This document shows, piece by piece, positions 6,198-36,149 of a DNA stretch of 40,162 nt. The stretch's first letter is position 1. Each line of letters opens with the position of its first letter. Source of the stretch: a virus; IMG/VR virus record IMGVR_UViG_3300032893_000144, positions 1 through 40,162 of that record; one strand, written 5' to 3'. The notes beneath the pieces are model-generated. The model saw only the letters and a program-made list of their open reading frames with translations, was not told the DNA's origin and did not search any database. The position numbers and the translations under genes were made by a program.

Positions 6198-6608
6198 CTA
6201 TGCGGCCATCGGCGGGGCGGGAGGTGCGCCACCGGCAGGGGGGCCAGCGGGCGGCGGCGAGCCAGCGCCTGCGCCCTGCTGACGCTTGAGCAAACTCAGG
6301 ATCTGCGCCGGCATGATCTGCTTGCCCTGATCCTCAACGTCCTTGAATTCATTCGTGAGTGCCGTGATCGCCTTCAGGATCGCGCCACCCTTTTTCGAGA
6401 GCGCGCCGACTTTCGTCATCGCTGATTGCAGCGCCGTGATTGCAAGCTGAACCTCTGCGGTGCCGACTGCGGCGTGACCGGCAGCGGGCTGCGGCGTCAT
6501 CATCGGAGCGCCGGGCGGGCCAGCGGGCGCATCGGTGGGCATTCCAGGGGGTGAAGGAGGCGCGCCGGCTGCGCCGGCAGTTGGATTTGCGCCAGGTAGA
6601 TCAGGCAC
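6198..6608 (-). CDS. Pro/Ala/Gly-rich protein with helical core, first gene of capsid operon
   Basis: 136 residues, GTG start with CAGGGA six bases upstream. The first 45 and last 30 residues are Pro/Ala/Gly-rich low complexity; residues 48-105 form a helical core (VQLAITALQSAMTKVGALS, then AILKAITALTNEFKDVEDQG). No known domain seen. It is the first gene after the terminator/promoter island at 6635-6752, so it should lead the scaffold-capsid transcript. Confidence 0.55.
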   Translation of the reverse strand: MPDLPGANPTAGAAGAPPSPPGMPTDAPAGPPGAPMMTPQPAAGHAAVGTAEVQLAITALQSAMTKVGALSKKGGAILKAITALTNEFKDVEDQGKQIMPAQILSLLKRQQGAGAGSPPPAGPPAGGAPPAPPMAA

Positions 6609-6639: not shown

Positions 6640-6671
6640 TAGCCTAATTTGGATACCGCGCCGCTTGTCAA
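6640..6671 (-). promoter_or_regulatory. Sigma70-type promoter candidate for capsid operon
   Basis: On the minus strand a perfect TTGACA lies at 6671-6666. A TAGGCT hexamer follows after 19 bases, and an ATTAGG after 17. Spacing is not ideal. Placement is good: just downstream of a terminator and just upstream of the GTG at 6608. Sequence evidence only. Confidence 0.4.
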
Positions 6672-6678
6672 GTCCTAT

Positions 6679-6707
6679 CAAAGAAAAGCCCCTGACCAGC
6701 AGGGGCT
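6679..6707 (-). terminator. Rho-independent terminator after portal transcript
   Basis: Read on the minus strand, AGCCCCTG (6707-6700) pairs perfectly with CAGGGGCT (6694-6687) across a 5-base loop and is followed by TTTTCTTT. This is a textbook intrinsic terminator for leftward transcription coming from the portal gene and mini-ORF. Confidence 0.75.
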
Positions 6708-6728
6708 AAAGACTTCGGGTAGACCAAG

Positions 6729-6752
6729 GAGCCGAGCGTTTTAGCTCGGCTC
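6729..6752 (-). other. Strong hairpin between mini-ORF and terminator
   Basis: GAGCCGAGC at 6729-6737 and GCTCGGCTC at 6744-6752 form a perfect 9-bp stem with a 6-base loop. No U-tract follows on either strand, so it is not a standard terminator. It starts 5 bases after the mini-ORF stop and lies about 20 bases before the true terminator on the same RNA; it may protect or process the 3' end. Confidence 0.5.
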
Positions 6753-6757
6753 AGACT

Positions 6758-6799
6758 TCAACGTTTGCTCTTTCGCGAACGGCGCTTTCGGCGGGCCAT
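6758..6799 (-). CDS. 13-residue Arg/Lys-rich mini-ORF
   Basis: ATG at 6799 to TGA at 6758 encodes MARRKRRSRKSKR, nine basic residues out of thirteen. A near-perfect Shine-Dalgarno AGGAGAGG (6812-6805) stands 5 bases before the ATG, better than that of most neighbours. It is the last frame of the portal transcript, followed by a hairpin and a terminator. A protamine-like or RNA/DNA-binding peptide is possible. It could also be only a leader-type signal, and no homolog can be judged by eye. Confidence 0.5.
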   Translation of the reverse strand: MARRKRRSRKSKR

Positions 6800-6828
6800 T
6801 GTTGCCTCTCCTATGGTGATACGGTTCC

Positions 6829-8514
6829 CTATTTCTTGCTGCCGATCTTGCTGACCTTGCCTGTGGCGAGCTCCAATTGCTCTTGCCGTTGGGCTGCAGC
6901 TTTCTCGGCCGGCTCGATATTAGTCTTCAACTTCTGCTTGAGCAAGTTGCGCATCGGCACATTCAGCATATCGATCAGTGTCGCGCGGTCGATCGCCTTC
7001 GCTTTGAACAGCGCAAACGCCATGTTCGCCATGTCGATCATGAAAATCGGCGACGACGAGTGCGCATCGACGTGCACCATAAATTCATCGGTGAATTGCT
7101 TGGCAACGAAGTCGATCGCCGGCTGATTCCCCTCGGCCTCGAGCTTGTATACGCGATCGGAGTACTTGCGCATGATCTTCAAGATCAGCGTCGCGAGTTC
7201 CTCGATTTGCCGCTCGATGATGAGCGCGCGCGCCTTCGCTCGAGACGACCCCGCGCGCATCAGCTGCGCTGCGTGACCCTCAGATCGCACTCCGGGCTCC
7301 CCTTTGCCGCTCATGACATCGGAGGTCCCCACCGCATCATCGAACTGCGTGTCGAGGTAGTTCACTTCCGCGAACAGGTCCTCGGGCATCGCCGGCGCCA
7401 TGCGGTCGGCCTTCGATCCGTTCACGCTCGTCACGAGTCCGGTCGGGGAATCGAATGCGGCCTGGATCTCAAGCGGGTCGCCGTTCATGTCGCCACTGAC
7501 GAACGTCGGCGGCTGAGCTTGCAGCGTCATCAGGTGCTGAACCTGCTCCCAGCGAGTGTTCCTCAGCTGCTGAAGCACGATCAGGCGCTCCACGGCCGAC
7601 ATCCCCCAGTAATAGCCGTGCATCGGGAACGGGCAAATCTGCACGAACGGCTGGTCGTGCTCAAGGAAGGTATCGGCGATGGGACGGTCATAAATCGGCA
7701 CGAACGGGTGCGCGACCGTGAAGATGCGCAGGTCCCCGATCTCATCATCGAATACGTACAGCTCGTACATCCTCACCAGCGGCTGCTTGACGGTCGCGAC
7801 GTAACTCAGCTGTGCTCCGATCGACGTGTTGTACTCGCCCTGCGCGCTCGGGAGCGCCGTCGTCGTGATGACCTGGTTGACGCCCTGAGTCTGCTGCTGC
7901 TCATCGCCAGCGTTCTCGATGGCGGCATCTACGACTGCCTTGTAATCCTTGAATCCCGCGACGCGCAGCTGATACTCGAGCTGCGATTTCGTGATGCGGT
8001 ACTCGTGGAAGAACGCCTCCTGGTTGTGCAGTCCGCAGATGTCCTCGCGGTACACGCCGAAGTGATGCGGCTCGATCAGGTCGGTGGCGAGATCCTGCTT
8101 GATCGGCCGCGCCTTGATGTGCATCGTGCCGTACACCAGCGCCCAGCGCACCGCCTCCCCGACTCGGGTGTCGGTTTCGCTCTGGTGCCACGTGTCCATC
8201 ACGGCATCGGTCAGGATCGGCGCGTAGCGCAGCTCGTCGCGGCTGACGTTGCGCGCGATCTCGACGCCGAAGCGCACCGTGTCGGGCGAGTAGAGCATCG
8301 AGCAGGTTTTATCGATGTGGTTCCAGATTTTGTTGACCGTGCCGTACCCCTGCACGTCGCTGGCGACGCCCGTGGCGCCGAGTTGATCGCCGTAGAGGTA
8401 GTACTGCTTGAGCGTTCGATACGACTGCTGGCGCGTCTGCTGGCTCGCCTGGCAGATACTTACGACGTGCTTGACGAATTCGGCGCGCTCGCCCGCGTTA
8501 TCTGGGATTTTCAC
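6829..8514 (-). CDS. Portal protein
   Basis: 561 residues. I place the start at the GTG at 8514 (VKIPDNAGER), two bases downstream of the TAG of the preceding gene and preceded by AAGGA; the frame is open further upstream but there it only shadows that gene. Typical podovirus portal features: N-terminal helices (QTRQQSYRTLKQYYLYG), a central GYYWGMSAVERLIVLQQLRN segment, and helical C-terminal RAGSSRAKARALIIERQIEE. It forms the dodecameric DNA channel and terminase docking site. Two genes separate it from TerL. Confidence 0.8.
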   Translation of the reverse strand: MKIPDNAGERAEFVKHVVSICQASQQTRQQSYRTLKQYYLYGDQLGATGVASDVQGYGTVNKIWNHIDKTCSMLYSPDTVRFGVEIARNVSRDELRYAPILTDAVMDTWHQSETDTRVGEAVRWALVYGTMHIKARPIKQDLATDLIEPHHFGVYREDICGLHNQEAFFHEYRITKSQLEYQLRVAGFKDYKAVVDAAIENAGDEQQQTQGVNQVITTTALPSAQGEYNTSIGAQLSYVATVKQPLVRMYELYVFDDEIGDLRIFTVAHPFVPIYDRPIADTFLEHDQPFVQICPFPMHGYYWGMSAVERLIVLQQLRNTRWEQVQHLMTLQAQPPTFVSGDMNGDPLEIQAAFDSPTGLVTSVNGSKADRMAPAMPEDLFAEVNYLDTQFDDAVGTSDVMSGKGEPGVRSEGHAAQLMRAGSSRAKARALIIERQIEELATLILKIMRKYSDRVYKLEAEGNQPAIDFVAKQFTDEFMVHVDAHSSSPIFMIDMANMAFALFKAKAIDRATLIDMLNVPMRNLLKQKLKTNIEPAEKAAAQRQEQLELATGKVSKIGSKK

Positions 8515-8515
8515 G

Positions 8516-8983
8516 CTAGTCCTTTGGCTTGGCCACGTACAGCGGTCGCGGCGCTGGGAATGCCTGCGGCCCGACCGGAGCTCGCGGGATCTCCCCAAGG
8601 ATGTCGCGGCCAGTCACGGTGCCGAAGTTAGAACCCGCGACGCGCGGAATCTCAGCGCCTGGATTCTGAGAAAACCCAGGCTTGGCGTGCGGCACGGCGC
8701 CCCAGTGCGGCATGGTGTCGGGCGCCTTGAGTTGCTTCATGCGCATCGCTTTCTGCAGCACCGACTCGTTCGCCTTCGGGTCGTTGCGCAGGTCGGTCAA
8801 GCCCGCATCCTCGGCGATGCCCTTCAGCTGCTGATCGATGAATCTCATGTTGCCAGAGCGCCGAAACGCGGGCGCGGTGCGAATTTCCTGTTTCTGCCAC
8901 TCATCTGGGCAGCCATGTTTGCAGCGCTTTTTGGTGCTTTCATAGGGTCCGTGCGCGGCACACACCATCTCAAACGTCGGCAT
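8516..8983 (-). CDS. Conserved phage protein with CxxHG/CxHGC zinc-like motif
   Basis: 155 residues. The ATG at 8983 overlaps the TAA of the previous gene (TAATG). The N-terminus carries CAAHGPYES and KRCKHGCPDE, spaced like a small zinc-binding knuckle; the rest is polar with a Pro-rich end (APVGPQAFPAPRPLY). Found between TerL and portal genes in related phages as I recall, with unknown role. No catalytic residues seen. Confidence 0.55.
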   Translation of the reverse strand: MPTFEMVCAAHGPYESTKKRCKHGCPDEWQKQEIRTAPAFRRSGNMRFIDQQLKGIAEDAGLTDLRNDPKANESVLQKAMRMKQLKAPDTMPHWGAVPHAKPGFSQNPGAEIPRVAGSNFGTVTGRDILGEIPRAPVGPQAFPAPRPLYVAKPKD

Positions 8984-15269: not shown

Positions 15270-15417
15270 TCACCGGGCACGCCACCCCCGGAACCGTCAG
15301 CACCACCCCGTCCGCGTACTTACACACGCTCTGCACAATCTGCCCGCCCGTCGGACTCGGCAAAATCTGCAAACTCGATGCGATCAGGGCGGCAATGACA
15401 ACGGCAAAGTGACGCAT
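15262..15417 (-). CDS. 51-residue putative secreted peptide with two cysteines
   Basis: ATG at 15417 to TGA at 15262, preceded by GGGAGGGA with seven-base spacing, one of the clearest ribosome sites in the region. The N-terminus MRHFAVVIAALIASSLQ looks like a signal peptide; the remainder is short and contains Cys32 and Cys47, which could form a disulfide in the periplasm. Overlaps the 3' end of the HNH gene by 34 bases, supporting the view that the endonuclease was inserted upstream. Function unknown. Confidence 0.55.
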   Translation of the reverse strand: MRHFAVVIAALIASSLQILPSPTGGQIVQSVCKYADGVVLTVPGVACPVSD

Positions 15418-16100
15418 GGCTTCCCTCCCAGTTCGGACGGCATCTTATCCGATTTGCGTAAATTGCAAGGCGCGCACAGCAACTGCAGGTTCTCAAGCAC
15501 GTGCTGCCCCCCTCGCGCGATCGGGACAATGTGATCGATGTGGTAGTTCACTCGGCCCGTGGGCAAGTAGCCAAGCGATGTCTGGCAGTACACGCAGCGC
15601 GCGGCTTGCACCTTCAGCAAGTGCCTCACTAAGCCGTGGTCCTTCCACTTCGGCACCCCAGCGGCACGGCGCGCTGCAGCCCGAGCACTACCGCGGGCGC
15701 GTACGCAGTCTCTGCAATAAGGGGAGCGACGCTCTGATCCGTCCGGATACTTTCCGTGGCGGGCAAACCATCCCCTCGGGTGCGCCTCTCCGCAGGCCGA
15801 GCATTTGATTTCAGGCTCCTCGCCGCGGCGAGGCTTGCGCTGGCTAGGAGCCCGATTCTTGATTTTCTCTAAGTACCGCCTCCTGACGCGTTCCCTGACC
15901 TTTTGCATTGCGATCGGATCAGCCTTCCTCTTGAGATACTTCTCACGCTCCTGCTCCGGAGTGCGCTTGTACCGGCCTTTGTATCGGCCGGCATACCTCG
16001 CGTTCAACTCTCGATACGCGGCATCCCTGCACCCCACACAGTACTTACTTCGAGTGGGCGCTCGGTAGCACCTCTGGCAAATCTTCGTGAAATTTTCCAT
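15384..16100 (-). CDS. HNH endonuclease (homing type)
   Basis: 238 residues from the ATG at 16100 (MENFTKICQR). The C-terminal domain has RCVYC (Cys169, Cys172), YHIDHIVPIARGG with His187, Asp189 and His190, then LENLQLLCAPCNLRKSD with Cys209/Cys212 and Asn213: a full HNH beta-beta-alpha-metal site with structural zinc Cys pairs. N-terminal Cys pairs (CQRC, CVGC; CSAC, CRDC) suggest extra zinc ribbons, with a very basic helical stretch at 40-95 for DNA binding. No good ribosome site precedes it. First gene of the late operon, so either homing or a packaging-related HNH; far from TerL, so I favour homing. Confidence 0.8.
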   Translation of the reverse strand: MENFTKICQRCYRAPTRSKYCVGCRDAAYRELNARYAGRYKGRYKRTPEQEREKYLKRKADPIAMQKVRERVRRRYLEKIKNRAPSQRKPRRGEEPEIKCSACGEAHPRGWFARHGKYPDGSERRSPYCRDCVRARGSARAAARRAAGVPKWKDHGLVRHLLKVQAARCVYCQTSLGYLPTGRVNYHIDHIVPIARGGQHVLENLQLLCAPCNLRKSDKMPSELGGKPCVTLPLSLPP

Positions 16101-16150
16101 GGGGAGATAATAACAAAAAAACATTTGGGGGAAGCAACGTGTCGGGCGAA

Positions 16151-16164
16151 CGGAAACGTTTCCG
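16151..16164. promoter_or_regulatory. 14-bp perfect palindrome, operator candidate
   Basis: CGGAAACGTTTCCG reads identically on both strands and is flanked by a CGGG / CCCG pair. It lies about 50 bases upstream of the HNH start. It could be a dimeric regulator site or form a small hairpin. Confidence 0.45.
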
Positions 16165-16244
16165 CCCGTCCCCATCGCCCTCCCGAGCCGCGCCAAAACT
16201 GAAAATCTAGAGTTTTCAATGTGTTACGCGGCGGCTACCCGGTC

Positions 16245-28573: not shown

Positions 28574-28648
28574 AGGACTGTAGCTCAGCGGTAGAGCAGG
28601 CGGTCGATAACCGCCAGGTCGTCAGTTCAATCCTGACCAGTCCTACCA
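28574..28648 (+). tRNA. tRNA-Ile (anticodon GAT), unusual C33
   Basis: 75 bases, full cloverleaf: acceptor AGGACTG/CAGTCCT, D arm GCTC-AGCGGTA-GAGC, anticodon arm GGCGG-TCGATAA-CCGCC, T arm GTCAG-TTCAATC-CTGAC, discriminator A and encoded CCA. Anticodon GAT at 28606-28608 reads Ile codons ATC/ATT. All stems pair perfectly, but base 33 is C instead of the near-universal U. It sits 48 bases before the integrase gene, so it may be a translation helper, an attachment site, or both. Confidence 0.85.
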
Positions 28649-28696
28649 CCGGATAACTCAGTAGCATATACAGTTTGCTGCGGCGCGGACTACTGG

Positions 28697-29566
28697 ATGG
28701 ACACGCTGGAAACCATGCGAATAATAGGGCAGATGGACACACAACCCGCTCCATCTGCCGTCACCGTCGCCACCATCCTCGAGCGCTACGAGCGCGAGTA
28801 CGTACCAACGCTAGCGCCACGCACGCAGGTCGATTACCGTCGCCATATCGAGAAACTGAAGGTCGCGTTCGGGGACCGGAATCCCGATGAGATGAAGCCG
28901 CGCGACTTCGCGGCGTTCCTCAACGTACCAAAAGGAAAGATCCAGCGCGTTCGCCAGCTGGCGGTGCTGAGCTCAGCGTTCACGCAGTCGGTGTCGGTGT
29001 GGTTCTGGCAGGATCGCAACGTGTTGCGCGACGTGAAACGCATCAAATCCAAGCCGCGCGACCGGCTCGTGCTGGACGCTGAGTTTGAAGCCTGCAAGGC
29101 CATGGCACCGAAGCGTGTTCAGCTCGCGATGATGCTCGCCGTCATGACGGGGCAGCGCCAGGGTGACATCATCCGTTTCACCTGGGCCGCTATTCGTGAC
29201 GGCGCGCTGCATCTGAGACAGGCCAAGACTGGAAAGCGCCTGGCGATCGCGCTCAATCCGGAGCTAAAGCGCGTACTCGGTGAGTGCTGGAAACTGAAGG
29301 GCGGCGGGGGCGAGTACATTCTGCCGACCCGATCCGGCAAGCCGTACACGTCCGAGGGGTTCCGTGCCTGCTGGCAGCGAGTCCAGCGCAAATGGCTCGC
29401 GAGCGGCGGCGCTGGCTTCCACTTCCACGACATCAGGGCACTCGCGGCGACAAAATGCGCCACGCCCGAAATAGCCATGCGGCTACTCGGACACTCGAAT
29501 ATCGCGATGACGCTGCGGGTTTACCGCCGCGGCCCGGAGCGCGTTGAGGCGCTGAAGATCGGCTAG
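28697..29566 (+). CDS. int: Tyrosine-recombinase integrase
   Basis: 289 residues. An N-terminal SAM-like core-binding domain (VTVATILERYEREYVPTLAP ... YRRHIEKLK) precedes the catalytic domain with Arg154 (TGQRQGDII), Lys177 (QAKTGK), His244 and Arg247 (FHFHDIRALAA), His266 (LLGHSN) and nucleophile Tyr276 (RVYRRG). The set is complete. An ATG at 28733 preceded by AGGG is an alternative start. It catalyses integration between attP and attB, with the adjoining tRNA as candidate attP. Its TAG shares CTAG with the stop of the opposing gene, so the two operons end face to face with no space. Confidence 0.9.
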   Translation: MDTLETMRIIGQMDTQPAPSAVTVATILERYEREYVPTLAPRTQVDYRRHIEKLKVAFGDRNPDEMKPRDFAAFLNVPKGKIQRVRQLAVLSSAFTQSVSVWFWQDRNVLRDVKRIKSKPRDRLVLDAEFEACKAMAPKRVQLAMMLAVMTGQRQGDIIRFTWAAIRDGALHLRQAKTGKRLAIALNPELKRVLGECWKLKGGGGEYILPTRSGKPYTSEGFRACWQRVQRKWLASGGAGFHFHDIRALAATKCATPEIAMRLLGHSNIAMTLRVYRRGPERVEALKIG

Positions 29567-34165: not shown

Positions 34166-35730
34166 TGCACCTGGAAACCCTGACCTGTCAGGAACGCTTT
34201 GGCAGCATCGGTCGAGATGCCGTGCTTATCCGCATACGCCTTGAGCGTAGCGGCGCTCACGGTCGCCTTGGGAGGACCAGTCCCTGTCAGTGTCGCCGCG
34301 TGCTCGACGCTATAGCCATTTTTAAGGGCATCCATGACAGCTTGATTGCCGGCCATCACGGCTTGCGTGACTTTCTTGCTGGCGTCGATCGCGGCCTGAA
34401 GCTCCGGCACGCTCATCGTGTCAGGGAACATGTTGTGCGCCTGGGCGCGGACCGTCTCGGTCGCCTGCCCGGTGCGCGCGAGCACGTTCGTCAGGTCGGC
34501 GCGGGTGTCCTCGAGGATCGTCACGTAGCGCTGAATATCTGGATTCGCATACACGTGCTGCTGGATGCCGATGCGCACCGCATTGGCTGTCTTGCTGTCC
34601 CCGAGGTTCACTTTCTGCGCGGCGGATAGCAGCTGATCGTAGAGTCCGCCCGGCTCAGTGAGGGCGGTGGCGCTGGCCTCTATGTTGCCCTCACGGCGGG
34701 CCACCTGCGTTGCTTCAGTCATCGTCGCGCGAGCGCCAGCCTGCGCTCCGACTACCGCACCAGCGCCGCCCATCTGCTTGATCTCGTCGGCTTTGATCGC
34801 TTGATAGCGATTGCGCAGGGCGCTCTTCCCCATGCCAAATCCTGGATCGCGCCCCGTAACGATCGCCGTTTTAGCGAGCGTCCGCAGCTGGTCGTCGGTC
34901 ATGTTATCGGTCGCTTGGGCAGCGACCGCGGCATCCTTCTTCCTCGCCAACTCCAGTTTCACCCGCTCGTCGTACGATTCCTTATCGAGCTTGTACTGGT
35001 TCTCGGCGAGCTGCTGAGCGGCGGTGCGGATGTGCTCCTGCGTCTCGAGTAACTGCTGGCTGACCTTGATCTCGTCTCCCGTCATGTCGTGCGCGGCCTG
35101 CAGTGCCTTGAGGTCAGCATCGGGCCGGCCGGCATACGCCTTCTTCATCTCCTCGAAAATCTTGAGCTGCTGTTCCTGCCTGTCCTTGAAGCGCTCATAA
35201 GCGTCCGCGTAGGCTTTCTGGGCGTTCTCGTACGCCTGCTGGTTGCCAGCCAAGTACCCCTGAACGGTGCCCGTGGTGGCCGCGAGCATCGCTCCTGCAT
35301 CGAGCTGGGTGAGCTTGCCTCCGAATGCGGCCATGAGCAGAAGAGGCGCCATCCGTTGCAGTGGATTCGATGTCTGCTGTGGAGGCGCTGGCGGCTGCTC
35401 CGAGAGCGCGTCGATTTCGGCCTGAGTCAGACGCTCCTGCTGCGCCTGATTGGCGCGCACGTCCTGCACGTAGGCTTTTTCTCCGGCACGCAGGTCCTGC
35501 AGGTCATCGAGTTCGGTCTGAGAGAGCCTATCGAGCGCACGGCGTTCGGTGTCCGATGGCTGGCCGATCTTGGCGAGGTCGGGCGGCTTCGGGGCTTGGC
35601 GCTCAAGTGCATCGATCGTCGCATCGTCTGCCTGTGGCAGCGGTGGTGGGATCGCGAGCGCCTCGTACTGCGCCCACGTCGGGGCGCCACCGTTAGCGGC
35701 TGCGGAGACGACTGAAGGGTCAGCGCTCAT
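34162..35730 (-). CDS. Internal virion protein candidate, coiled-coil rich
   Basis: 522 residues. A hydrophobic patch near residue 120 ([20 protein letters not shown]) is followed by a long coiled coil ([58 protein letters not shown]). Ends with a small domain ([19 protein letters not shown]). Such helical proteins are packed in podovirus heads and form the ejection channel. Start ATG at 35730 overlaps the HNH stop as ATGA. Confidence 0.55.
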
Positions 35731-36149
35731 GAATTACCCCTGTGAGCCCAGTGCCTACCTTTCATGGCCATATCTTTCAAGTTTTCGGCCTGTGTTCCTA
35801 AGAACAGATGCTCTGGGTTTACACACTGAGGGATGTCGCATGAGTGACAGACAACCATGCCTTTGGGGATGGGGCCATTATGCAATTCCCACGACACGCG
35901 GTTAGCGCGGGCGGCCCCACCGTCTTTATGAATGACCCCATACCCCATTCTTTTGTGAATCCTGGCTCCAGTCCAAATCCAGTGCCGAGTTATCGGTCTC
36001 ACAATGTAGAGCTGCTTAAATCGATCGAACAACTCGCGCCGCGCTCTTTCAGGTGTTTCCGCTGGATTTTGGCCCTTCCTCCAGCGCTTATAGTGCATCA
36101 AGCACATGCCGCGCGCTTTAGACTCCCTTTCGCAGTAGTTGCACTTCAT
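35727..36149 (-). CDS. HNH endonuclease inserted between virion genes
   Basis: 140 residues. N-terminal [21 protein letters not shown] is a zinc-knuckle-like module; then [15 protein letters not shown], a linker, and the His-Me-finger core [20 protein letters not shown] with [20 protein letters not shown]: the HNH_3/homing pattern (His, Cys, Asn-Pro-x-His). DNA is more AT-rich than the flanking genes and there is no good ribosome site. Most likely a free-standing homing endonuclease that invaded the ejection-protein operon. Confidence 0.8.

Follow-up and report, generated by a model that had tools for sequence, protein, structure and literature searches.

Very short arginine- and lysine-rich genes conserved behind the portal gene in a clade of uncultured podoviruses

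Sequence comparisons support the existence of a real, conserved, protein-coding micro-gene of 13 codons directly behind the portal gene of the complete 40,162-base viral record analysed here (the window). Counterparts of this mini-ORF, often in tandem, are present after the portal gene in 175 of 184 non-redundant relatives compared with 9 of 3680 Markov-resampled regions, and for this reason we do not regard it as a product of chance. We propose, with a probability of roughly 0.4, that the product is a nucleic-acid-binding microprotein which, as the head is filled, acts chiefly on the DNA of the phage itself, in a role similar to that of the microvirus J and adenovirus mu proteins. The head genes of the window (TerL, portal and capsid genes) are encoded on the minus strand, and the micro-gene is surrounded by the following features.

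6829..8598, minus strand: portal protein gene, the upstream neighbour (PHROG portal families; Pfam SU10_portal, 1e-16)
6826..6830, minus strand: AGGGA, the G-run of the window, overlapping the portal stop codon (from the G-run comparison across loci)
6812-6805, minus strand: ribosome-binding site AGGAGAGG, 5 bases 5′ of the ATG at 6799
6799-6758, minus strand: micro-ORF MARRKRRSRKSKR, ATG 6799 and TGA 6758, 13 codons plus TGA
6752-6729, minus strand: perfect 9-bp hairpin with the loop UAAAAC, 5 bases past the micro-ORF stop codon
6677..6707, minus strand: intrinsic terminator from the terminator scan, with an 8-bp stem (6707-6687) and the T-rich tail TTTCTTTGAT
6641..6671, minus strand: weak promoter-like element, TTGACA (6671-6666), a 19-base spacer and TAGGCT
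6198..6608, minus strand: next gene, 136 aa with a Pro/Ala-rich N-terminus; a similar ORF occupies the equivalent place in L001-L004

The original prediction had described a ribosome site, a mini-ORF, a hairpin and a terminator in succession, and all four were found on the minus strand exactly where it had placed them. Counted from the first TTG the portal protein comprises 589 aa, the ATG at 8514 being the probable start; its stop codon is the TAG at 6831-6829, which leaves 29 bases up to the micro-ORF ATG. Nine of the 13 residues of MARRKRRSRKSKR are basic. When the 220-base region was simulated 5000 times at first order, not one ORF of 9-25 codons combined a ribosome site with a K/R content of 0.6 or more, and under a looser filter (K/R of at least 0.5) the micro-ORF is the sole such ORF on both strands of the 40,162-base record. 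The window terminator alone is unremarkable, since the scan returned 2 sites in a 701-base stretch versus a mean of 1.2 after shuffling; its recurrence in 17/19 window-type loci, by contrast, is noteworthy. The promoter-like box at 6671-6666 has a weak partner and was not called by a stricter promoter scan. The 136-aa protein encoded at 6198..6608 matched no family at a threshold of 0.001, and scaffold is for it a query only. Elsewhere in the window, a tRNA-Ile(GAT) gene is followed by a tyrosine integrase gene (28574-29566; PF00589, 5.4e-17); the virus is thus probably temperate, with the tRNA gene as its attachment site. Two HNH endonuclease genes are located at 15384-16196 and 35727-36149, both on the minus strand and the second amid structural genes.

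A portal-protein search yielded five loci in viral contigs, five in genome contigs and two GenBank records from Manatee Spring, and the portal alignments taken were the best 80 of 586, 80 of 569, 80 of 111 and 80 of 167, in overlapping sets. Two Paenibacillus phages, API480 among them, were weak portal matches, over 36% of the portal. Window included, the portal stop codon was present in 306 loci, which formed 192 clusters by common 14-mers; ten loci without that codon and a duplicate of the window stretch (L006) had been left out. Eight cluster representatives with fewer than 450 bases downstream were dropped, leaving the 184 loci for testing. The interval searched extended from −12 to +620 relative to the portal stop, and an ORF was counted as a mini-ORF if it had 8-27 codons, a K/R content of at least 0.45, an ATG or GTG start and a ribosome site of four or more bases; this filter was set after the first loci had been inspected and was applied identically to the controls. 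We refer to loci whose portal is nearest to that of the window, L009, L010, L013, L017 or L036 as clade I and to all others as clade II, both being best-match labels rather than branches of a tree.

The search of relatives for tiny frames behind the portal gene thus bore out a real, conserved element, and the outcome that might have spoken against it, namely flanks that are kept around a missing frame or ribosome site, did not refute the prediction: a mini-ORF is present in 41/41 clade I and 134/143 clade II loci. There is one copy in 46 loci, two copies are found in 97 and three in 32, each with its own ribosome site. In 251 of the 336 mini-ORFs, 5 or 6 bases of the site agree with AGGAGG (at least 4 being needed for counting), and the lengths range from 9 to 21 codons, with 10-15 codons in 328 cases. 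Both the strong ribosome site and the protamine-like composition noted earlier for the window copy are therefore general across the family. A comparison of these ribosome sites with those of long ORFs was set aside, the long ORFs being mechanical and the mini-ORFs preselected for the site. The 336 ORFs passing the filter are contained in 116 kb after the portal gene, as against 8 in 1.32 Mb of other sequence from that strand, three of which belong to L038, and 5 in 1.44 Mb of the reverse strand.

Several of the loci counted as lacking a mini-ORF are special cases. In L038, three mini-ORFs are shifted to +1022..+1200 by extra DNA, and at L057, L062, L079 and L090 a longer, less basic ORF is found where copy 1 would be. 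L092 is very distantly related, its portal being 29% identical to that of L078. No mini-ORF was seen in L076, where the sequence stops 728 bases past the portal, nor in L084 and L093; since it is absent from the latter two despite more than 1.8 kb of downstream sequence, the mini-ORF can evidently be lost. The insertion in L038 (2943-3960) amounts to ~1 kb of additional DNA between the portal and the three mini-ORFs. Clade II loci also encode, ahead of the mini-ORFs, a conserved 50-59-aa protein with a DQPR motif, overlapping or adjoining the portal stop (motif in 74/143 loci, e.g. L007:4573-4737). It matched no family, and a relationship with T7 gp6.7 was rejected, as the 2 of 18 members that matched did so at E 0.1-0.2 and failed to reach the curated cut-off.

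The peptides are of extreme composition, with 38% R, 29% K, 9% G, 8% A and 6% S, about 0.1% D and E, 1.3% L, I and V together and no F or W. After the initiator, R and K account for 66.5% of the residues, and most peptides terminate in K or R. A Ka/Ks-type check, as envisaged in the original prediction, revealed protein-level constraint in the family: pN/pS is 0.30 in frame (pN 0.116, pS 0.394, ratio 0.295), whereas both remaining frames give 2.1, for 2010 non-independent pairs of copies that agree in length and rank and are at least 65% identical in DNA. In the same pairs the differences per codon position are 0.118, 0.118 and 0.320. This ratio describes the family and not the window copy, because the latter is without a close relative. 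A C-terminal core, [GSA]RKx[KR][KR], is found in 111 of 176 distinct peptides (mean 4.7 and maximum 11 in shuffled peptides), the version in the window being SRKSKR. At basic positions the identity of the K or R is the same in 970 cells, with a K-R swap in 111 and another residue in 93.

Position-free pattern scans lead to the same place. A first scan of viral contigs for MARRKRR followed by an S/G-like residue and RK, at any position, gave 6 stretches, five of which are complete 13-codon mini-ORFs (MARRKRRGRK[SH]KR) directly behind the portal gene; the sixth, in L318, is a chance match with no ribosome site. The second pattern, RK[AG]RKGRKxRK-stop, matched at least 120 stretches, and 116 loci were analysed. 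Among the matches listed, 108/116 are directly behind a portal and 7 in contigs that start less than 450 bases upstream, the remaining locus (L378) being a low-complexity repeat; 114/116 have a ribosome site and 12-14 codons. L326, behind a portal, has at most 15 codons and passed no ribosome-site test. Among the matches listed in these 116 loci, the motif never forms the end of a longer fusion protein, which could have offered a clue to function. Taking both scans together, 120 of the 122 loci among the matches listed are mini-ORFs, 113 behind the portal and 7 at contig ends, and in this set the motif was only seen in the place behind the portal.

Codon use suggests that the family is translated efficiently. 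In the 156 loci that include the capsid gene, the CGT share of Arg codons is 0.455 for the mini-ORFs, 0.456 for the major capsid gene and 0.234 for the portal gene, and the share of GGT plus GGC among Gly codons is 0.914, 0.912 and 0.790, respectively. The share of CGT plus CGC is higher than in the portal gene at 148/175 loci and lower at 24. Runs of basic residues do not account for the shift, because Arg codons within basic stretches of portal and TerL have a CGT share of 0.23. The Ala and Ser codons track the capsid gene less closely, and the window copy, with the Arg codons CGC, CGA, CGC, CGT, CGA and CGT, is less extreme than the family average. Together with the ribosome sites, we infer from this translation at a capsid-like level. 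Such a bias speaks for efficient translation and says nothing about the destination of the product.

The transcript around the mini-ORFs also contains recurrent elements. Short hairpins at or just past the stop codon accompany 140/336 mini-ORFs, compared to 150/1680 in shuffles and 7/184 portal stops; the window hairpin is part of this habit, the hairpin sequence itself not being conserved. An intrinsic terminator follows the last mini-ORF in 17/19 window-type loci, and a recognisable terminator is found in 37/175 of all loci (38/1750 shuffles). A −35-like TTGAC[ATC] follows the last mini-ORF at a distance of up to 220 bases in 129/175 loci versus 213/1750 shuffles. The mini-ORFs are therefore the last genes of the terminase-portal group and lie ahead of a likely capsid promoter. 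Upstream, a G-run (GGGG or AGGGA) is located at −38..−22 of the last mini-ORF in 30/41 clade I loci (49/1230 random ATGs), and in the three-copy loci ~30 bases 5′ of the start of copy 2 in 32/32 (162/4290 random ATGs), with none before the first copies (0/16 and 0/32).

In the two-copy lineage, the spacer can form an H-type pseudoknot directly 5′ of the ribosome site of copy 2, whose first stem begins with a G-run of this kind. Across an alignment of 56 distinct spacers (L029:4881-4955 and 55 others), 93.7% of cells are paired versus 85.9% in shuffles, 7 of 11 pairs have changed on both sides (2.5 in shuffles), and 46 cells show such changes (11.9 in shuffles). None of 500 shuffles matches any of five measures, and structures slid along the alignment pair in 41-68%; each of the two central pairs in stem 2 is broken in 16 sequences. 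A blind descriptor search recovered a pseudoknot in 50/129 spacers of all lineages, compared with 22/1290 shuffles. Rfam at the gathering score returned nothing but a tRNA from 13 sources, and at E≤5 three stretches gave no convincing match. We consider this covarying structure without an Rfam counterpart a candidate for a new RNA motif.

How might so small a peptide act? As a class, such basic peptides bind nucleic acid, and tailed phages are thought to pack their DNA against ions and polyamines. According to our proposal, an almost exclusively basic peptide of 10-16 residues would be produced at a late stage of infection, at a level similar to that of the capsid protein, and would bind nucleic acid. 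The target would chiefly be the DNA of the phage itself, while it is packaged or afterwards, although the choice of DNA over RNA is a guess, as is the presence of the peptide in the virion. It might neutralise charge in the head or coat the DNA for the terminase/portal machine. Bulk use on DNA is favoured because of the capsid-like codon use, the several copies and the position in the head module. No need for a packaged protamine is known in tailed dsDNA phages, which counts against the proposal. The original prediction had offered three roles, a packaged DNA-binding peptide, a regulator of terminator use or a head assembly factor; the DNA-binding packaged peptide fits best, and control over the use of the terminator is a poorer fit, since terminators are found in only 37/175 loci and the −35-like box in 129/175.

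Comparable proteins exist in other viruses. Baculovirus P6.9 and ascovirus proteins are described as basic and DNA-condensing in dsDNA viruses, and adenovirus mu is a protamine-like core peptide cut from a precursor. Like these core peptides, which are dominated by Arg and Lys with few acidic residues, the mini-ORF products are rich in R and K (66.5%) and virtually free of D and E (about 0.1%). The core peptides, however, belong to eukaryotic viruses, whereas a mini-ORF encodes nothing beyond the peptide itself and is too short for homology to be traced. The J and VP8 proteins of microviruses (phiX174, alpha3, SpV4 and phiEC6098) are described as tiny, highly basic virion proteins that bind the genome (PMC11281519, PMC13386984); VP8 of SpV4 has 38 residues, and J/VP8 are reported to be anchored in the capsid via a buried hydrophobic C-terminus (PMC11281519). 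Tiny size and strong basicity are shared with the mini-ORF peptides. J/VP8 are nevertheless longer and come from ssDNA phages, while the window has a terminase, an SU10-type portal and a podovirus capsid gene, and the mini-ORF peptides, with 9-21 residues and mostly K/R at their ends, have neither a hydrophobic C-terminal anchor nor Phe or Trp.

Other named phages, with head genes weakly related or unrelated to those of the window, were compared: SU10, to whose Pfam portal family (SU10_portal) the window portal matches, phiEco32, T7, BPP-1, P22, LUZ24, Mx8, API480 and the TM7 phage, and the five TerL relatives HP1, CRP-7, K249, MW202692 and MW202622. Most of them have the same TerL-portal-capsid order. 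In the 233 kb of the first nine phages 3 ORFs pass the filter, none of them in the portal-capsid gap. The five TerL relatives have 2 such ORFs, one of which is inside the portal gene and neither at the place of the mini-ORF. BLAST gave no match between the capsid protein of the window and that of BPP-1, and the L061 portal was not found in plasmids.

An arginine-rich peptide could also be an RNA-binding regulator that acts on a structured leader or hairpin of its own late transcript and governs translation or the ends of the transcript, by autoregulation or by lambda N-like antitermination, which we consider unlikely but quite conceivable. The conserved leader elements would suit such a regulator equally well: the G-run ~30 bases 5′ of the last or second mini-ORF (30/41 and 32/32 loci), the covarying pseudoknot before copy 2 with 0/500 comparable shuffles, and the hairpins at the stop codons. 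The K/R identity kept at basic positions suggests more than bulk charge, but may be partly mutational, the mostly used K and R codons lying two bases apart. Codon use adapted to the level of the capsid gene and the presence of two or three copies point instead to bulk demand, which is rare for regulators; moreover, the window, where only 29 bases separate the portal stop from the ATG, has no space for the pseudoknot, and the terminator is confined to 37/175 loci, albeit above shuffles (38/1750). The lambdoid N proteins possess an arginine-rich RNA-binding motif within ~100 residues that include an RNA-polymerase-binding part. Their basic stretch is about as long as a mini-ORF and a hairpin and terminator are close by in the window, but a peptide of 13 residues (9-21 in the family) is too short for an N-type polymerase-binding part. 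If, on the other hand, the translation of Arg/Lys codons rather than the product set the downstream terminator, a hairpin and terminator 3′ of the ORF would be expected, as seen in 17/19 window-type loci. We give such a leader peptide a very small probability: in an attenuator the codons are functional, while the mini-ORFs show the opposite, with selected residues and free third positions (0.118, 0.118, 0.320), two or three copies, and a −35-like box after the unit in 129/175 loci.

A cofactor of head assembly or packaging that acts on a protein partner (portal, terminase or scaffold) without condensing DNA would agree with the strict place after the portal gene and with a conserved C-terminal core which is not random basic sequence, the copies being of distinct types; yet hardly any residues beyond K, R, G, A and S are available and offer little protein interface, making this rather unlikely in our view. 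There is a slim chance that the peptide is directed at the host, binding ribosomes or host nucleic acid and shutting down host functions. Its composition recalls that of tiny ribosomal proteins such as eL41, but the gene is grouped with the head genes, away from the early genes. The very short frame might finally invite the view that it is a chance ORF or lies in a conserved RNA that is not translated. This is scarcely credible given 175/184 loci versus 9/3680 resampled regions and a pN/pS of 0.30 solely in the mini-ORF frame, and chance was rejected on the basis of the 0/5000 simulations, the conservation across loci and the in-frame constraint.

As far as seen, the family is confined to one large clade of uncultured podoviruses. 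The two longest variants, of 21 and 25 aa, matched nothing in PHROGs, Pfam and NCBIfam apart from one chance-level PHROG (E 1.8), and the 21-mer matched no PDB chain. The family was not found in the available portions of the literature on small phage genes, protamine-like peptides and J proteins (including PMC11323111). As described for GMSC, predicted ORFs of at least 30 bases are contained in that catalogue (PMC11364881), and since prediction began at 30 bases single mini-ORF copies may be present there unnamed. We rate the mini-ORFs as resembling the tiny basic nucleic-acid-binding peptides of viruses, with no known family as their parent. Both GenBank members contain two unannotated copies each, and in MW202753 and MW202825 antisense CDSs for hypothetical proteins are annotated over the mini-ORFs (L007:4740-5038 and L008:8246-8506).

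Genes so short fall below the reach of annotation pipelines, and a multi-copy, probably highly translated family of 10-16 codons illustrates that widespread phage genes can go wholly unseen. If the peptide is regulatory, a covarying pseudoknot beside the gene of an arginine-rich peptide would constitute a compact RNA-peptide pair. If it is packaged, tailed phages would possess a genome-encoded DNA-condensing peptide. The fullest version of our proposal is doubtful; in it, one to three genes would supply a whole clade of tailed dsDNA phages with a protamine of its own, made at capsid-like levels under the control of a new leader RNA, whose G-run forms a pseudoknot in one lineage, and packaged together with the genome; should it be true, these genes of 10-16 codons would be among the shortest conserved in any phage.
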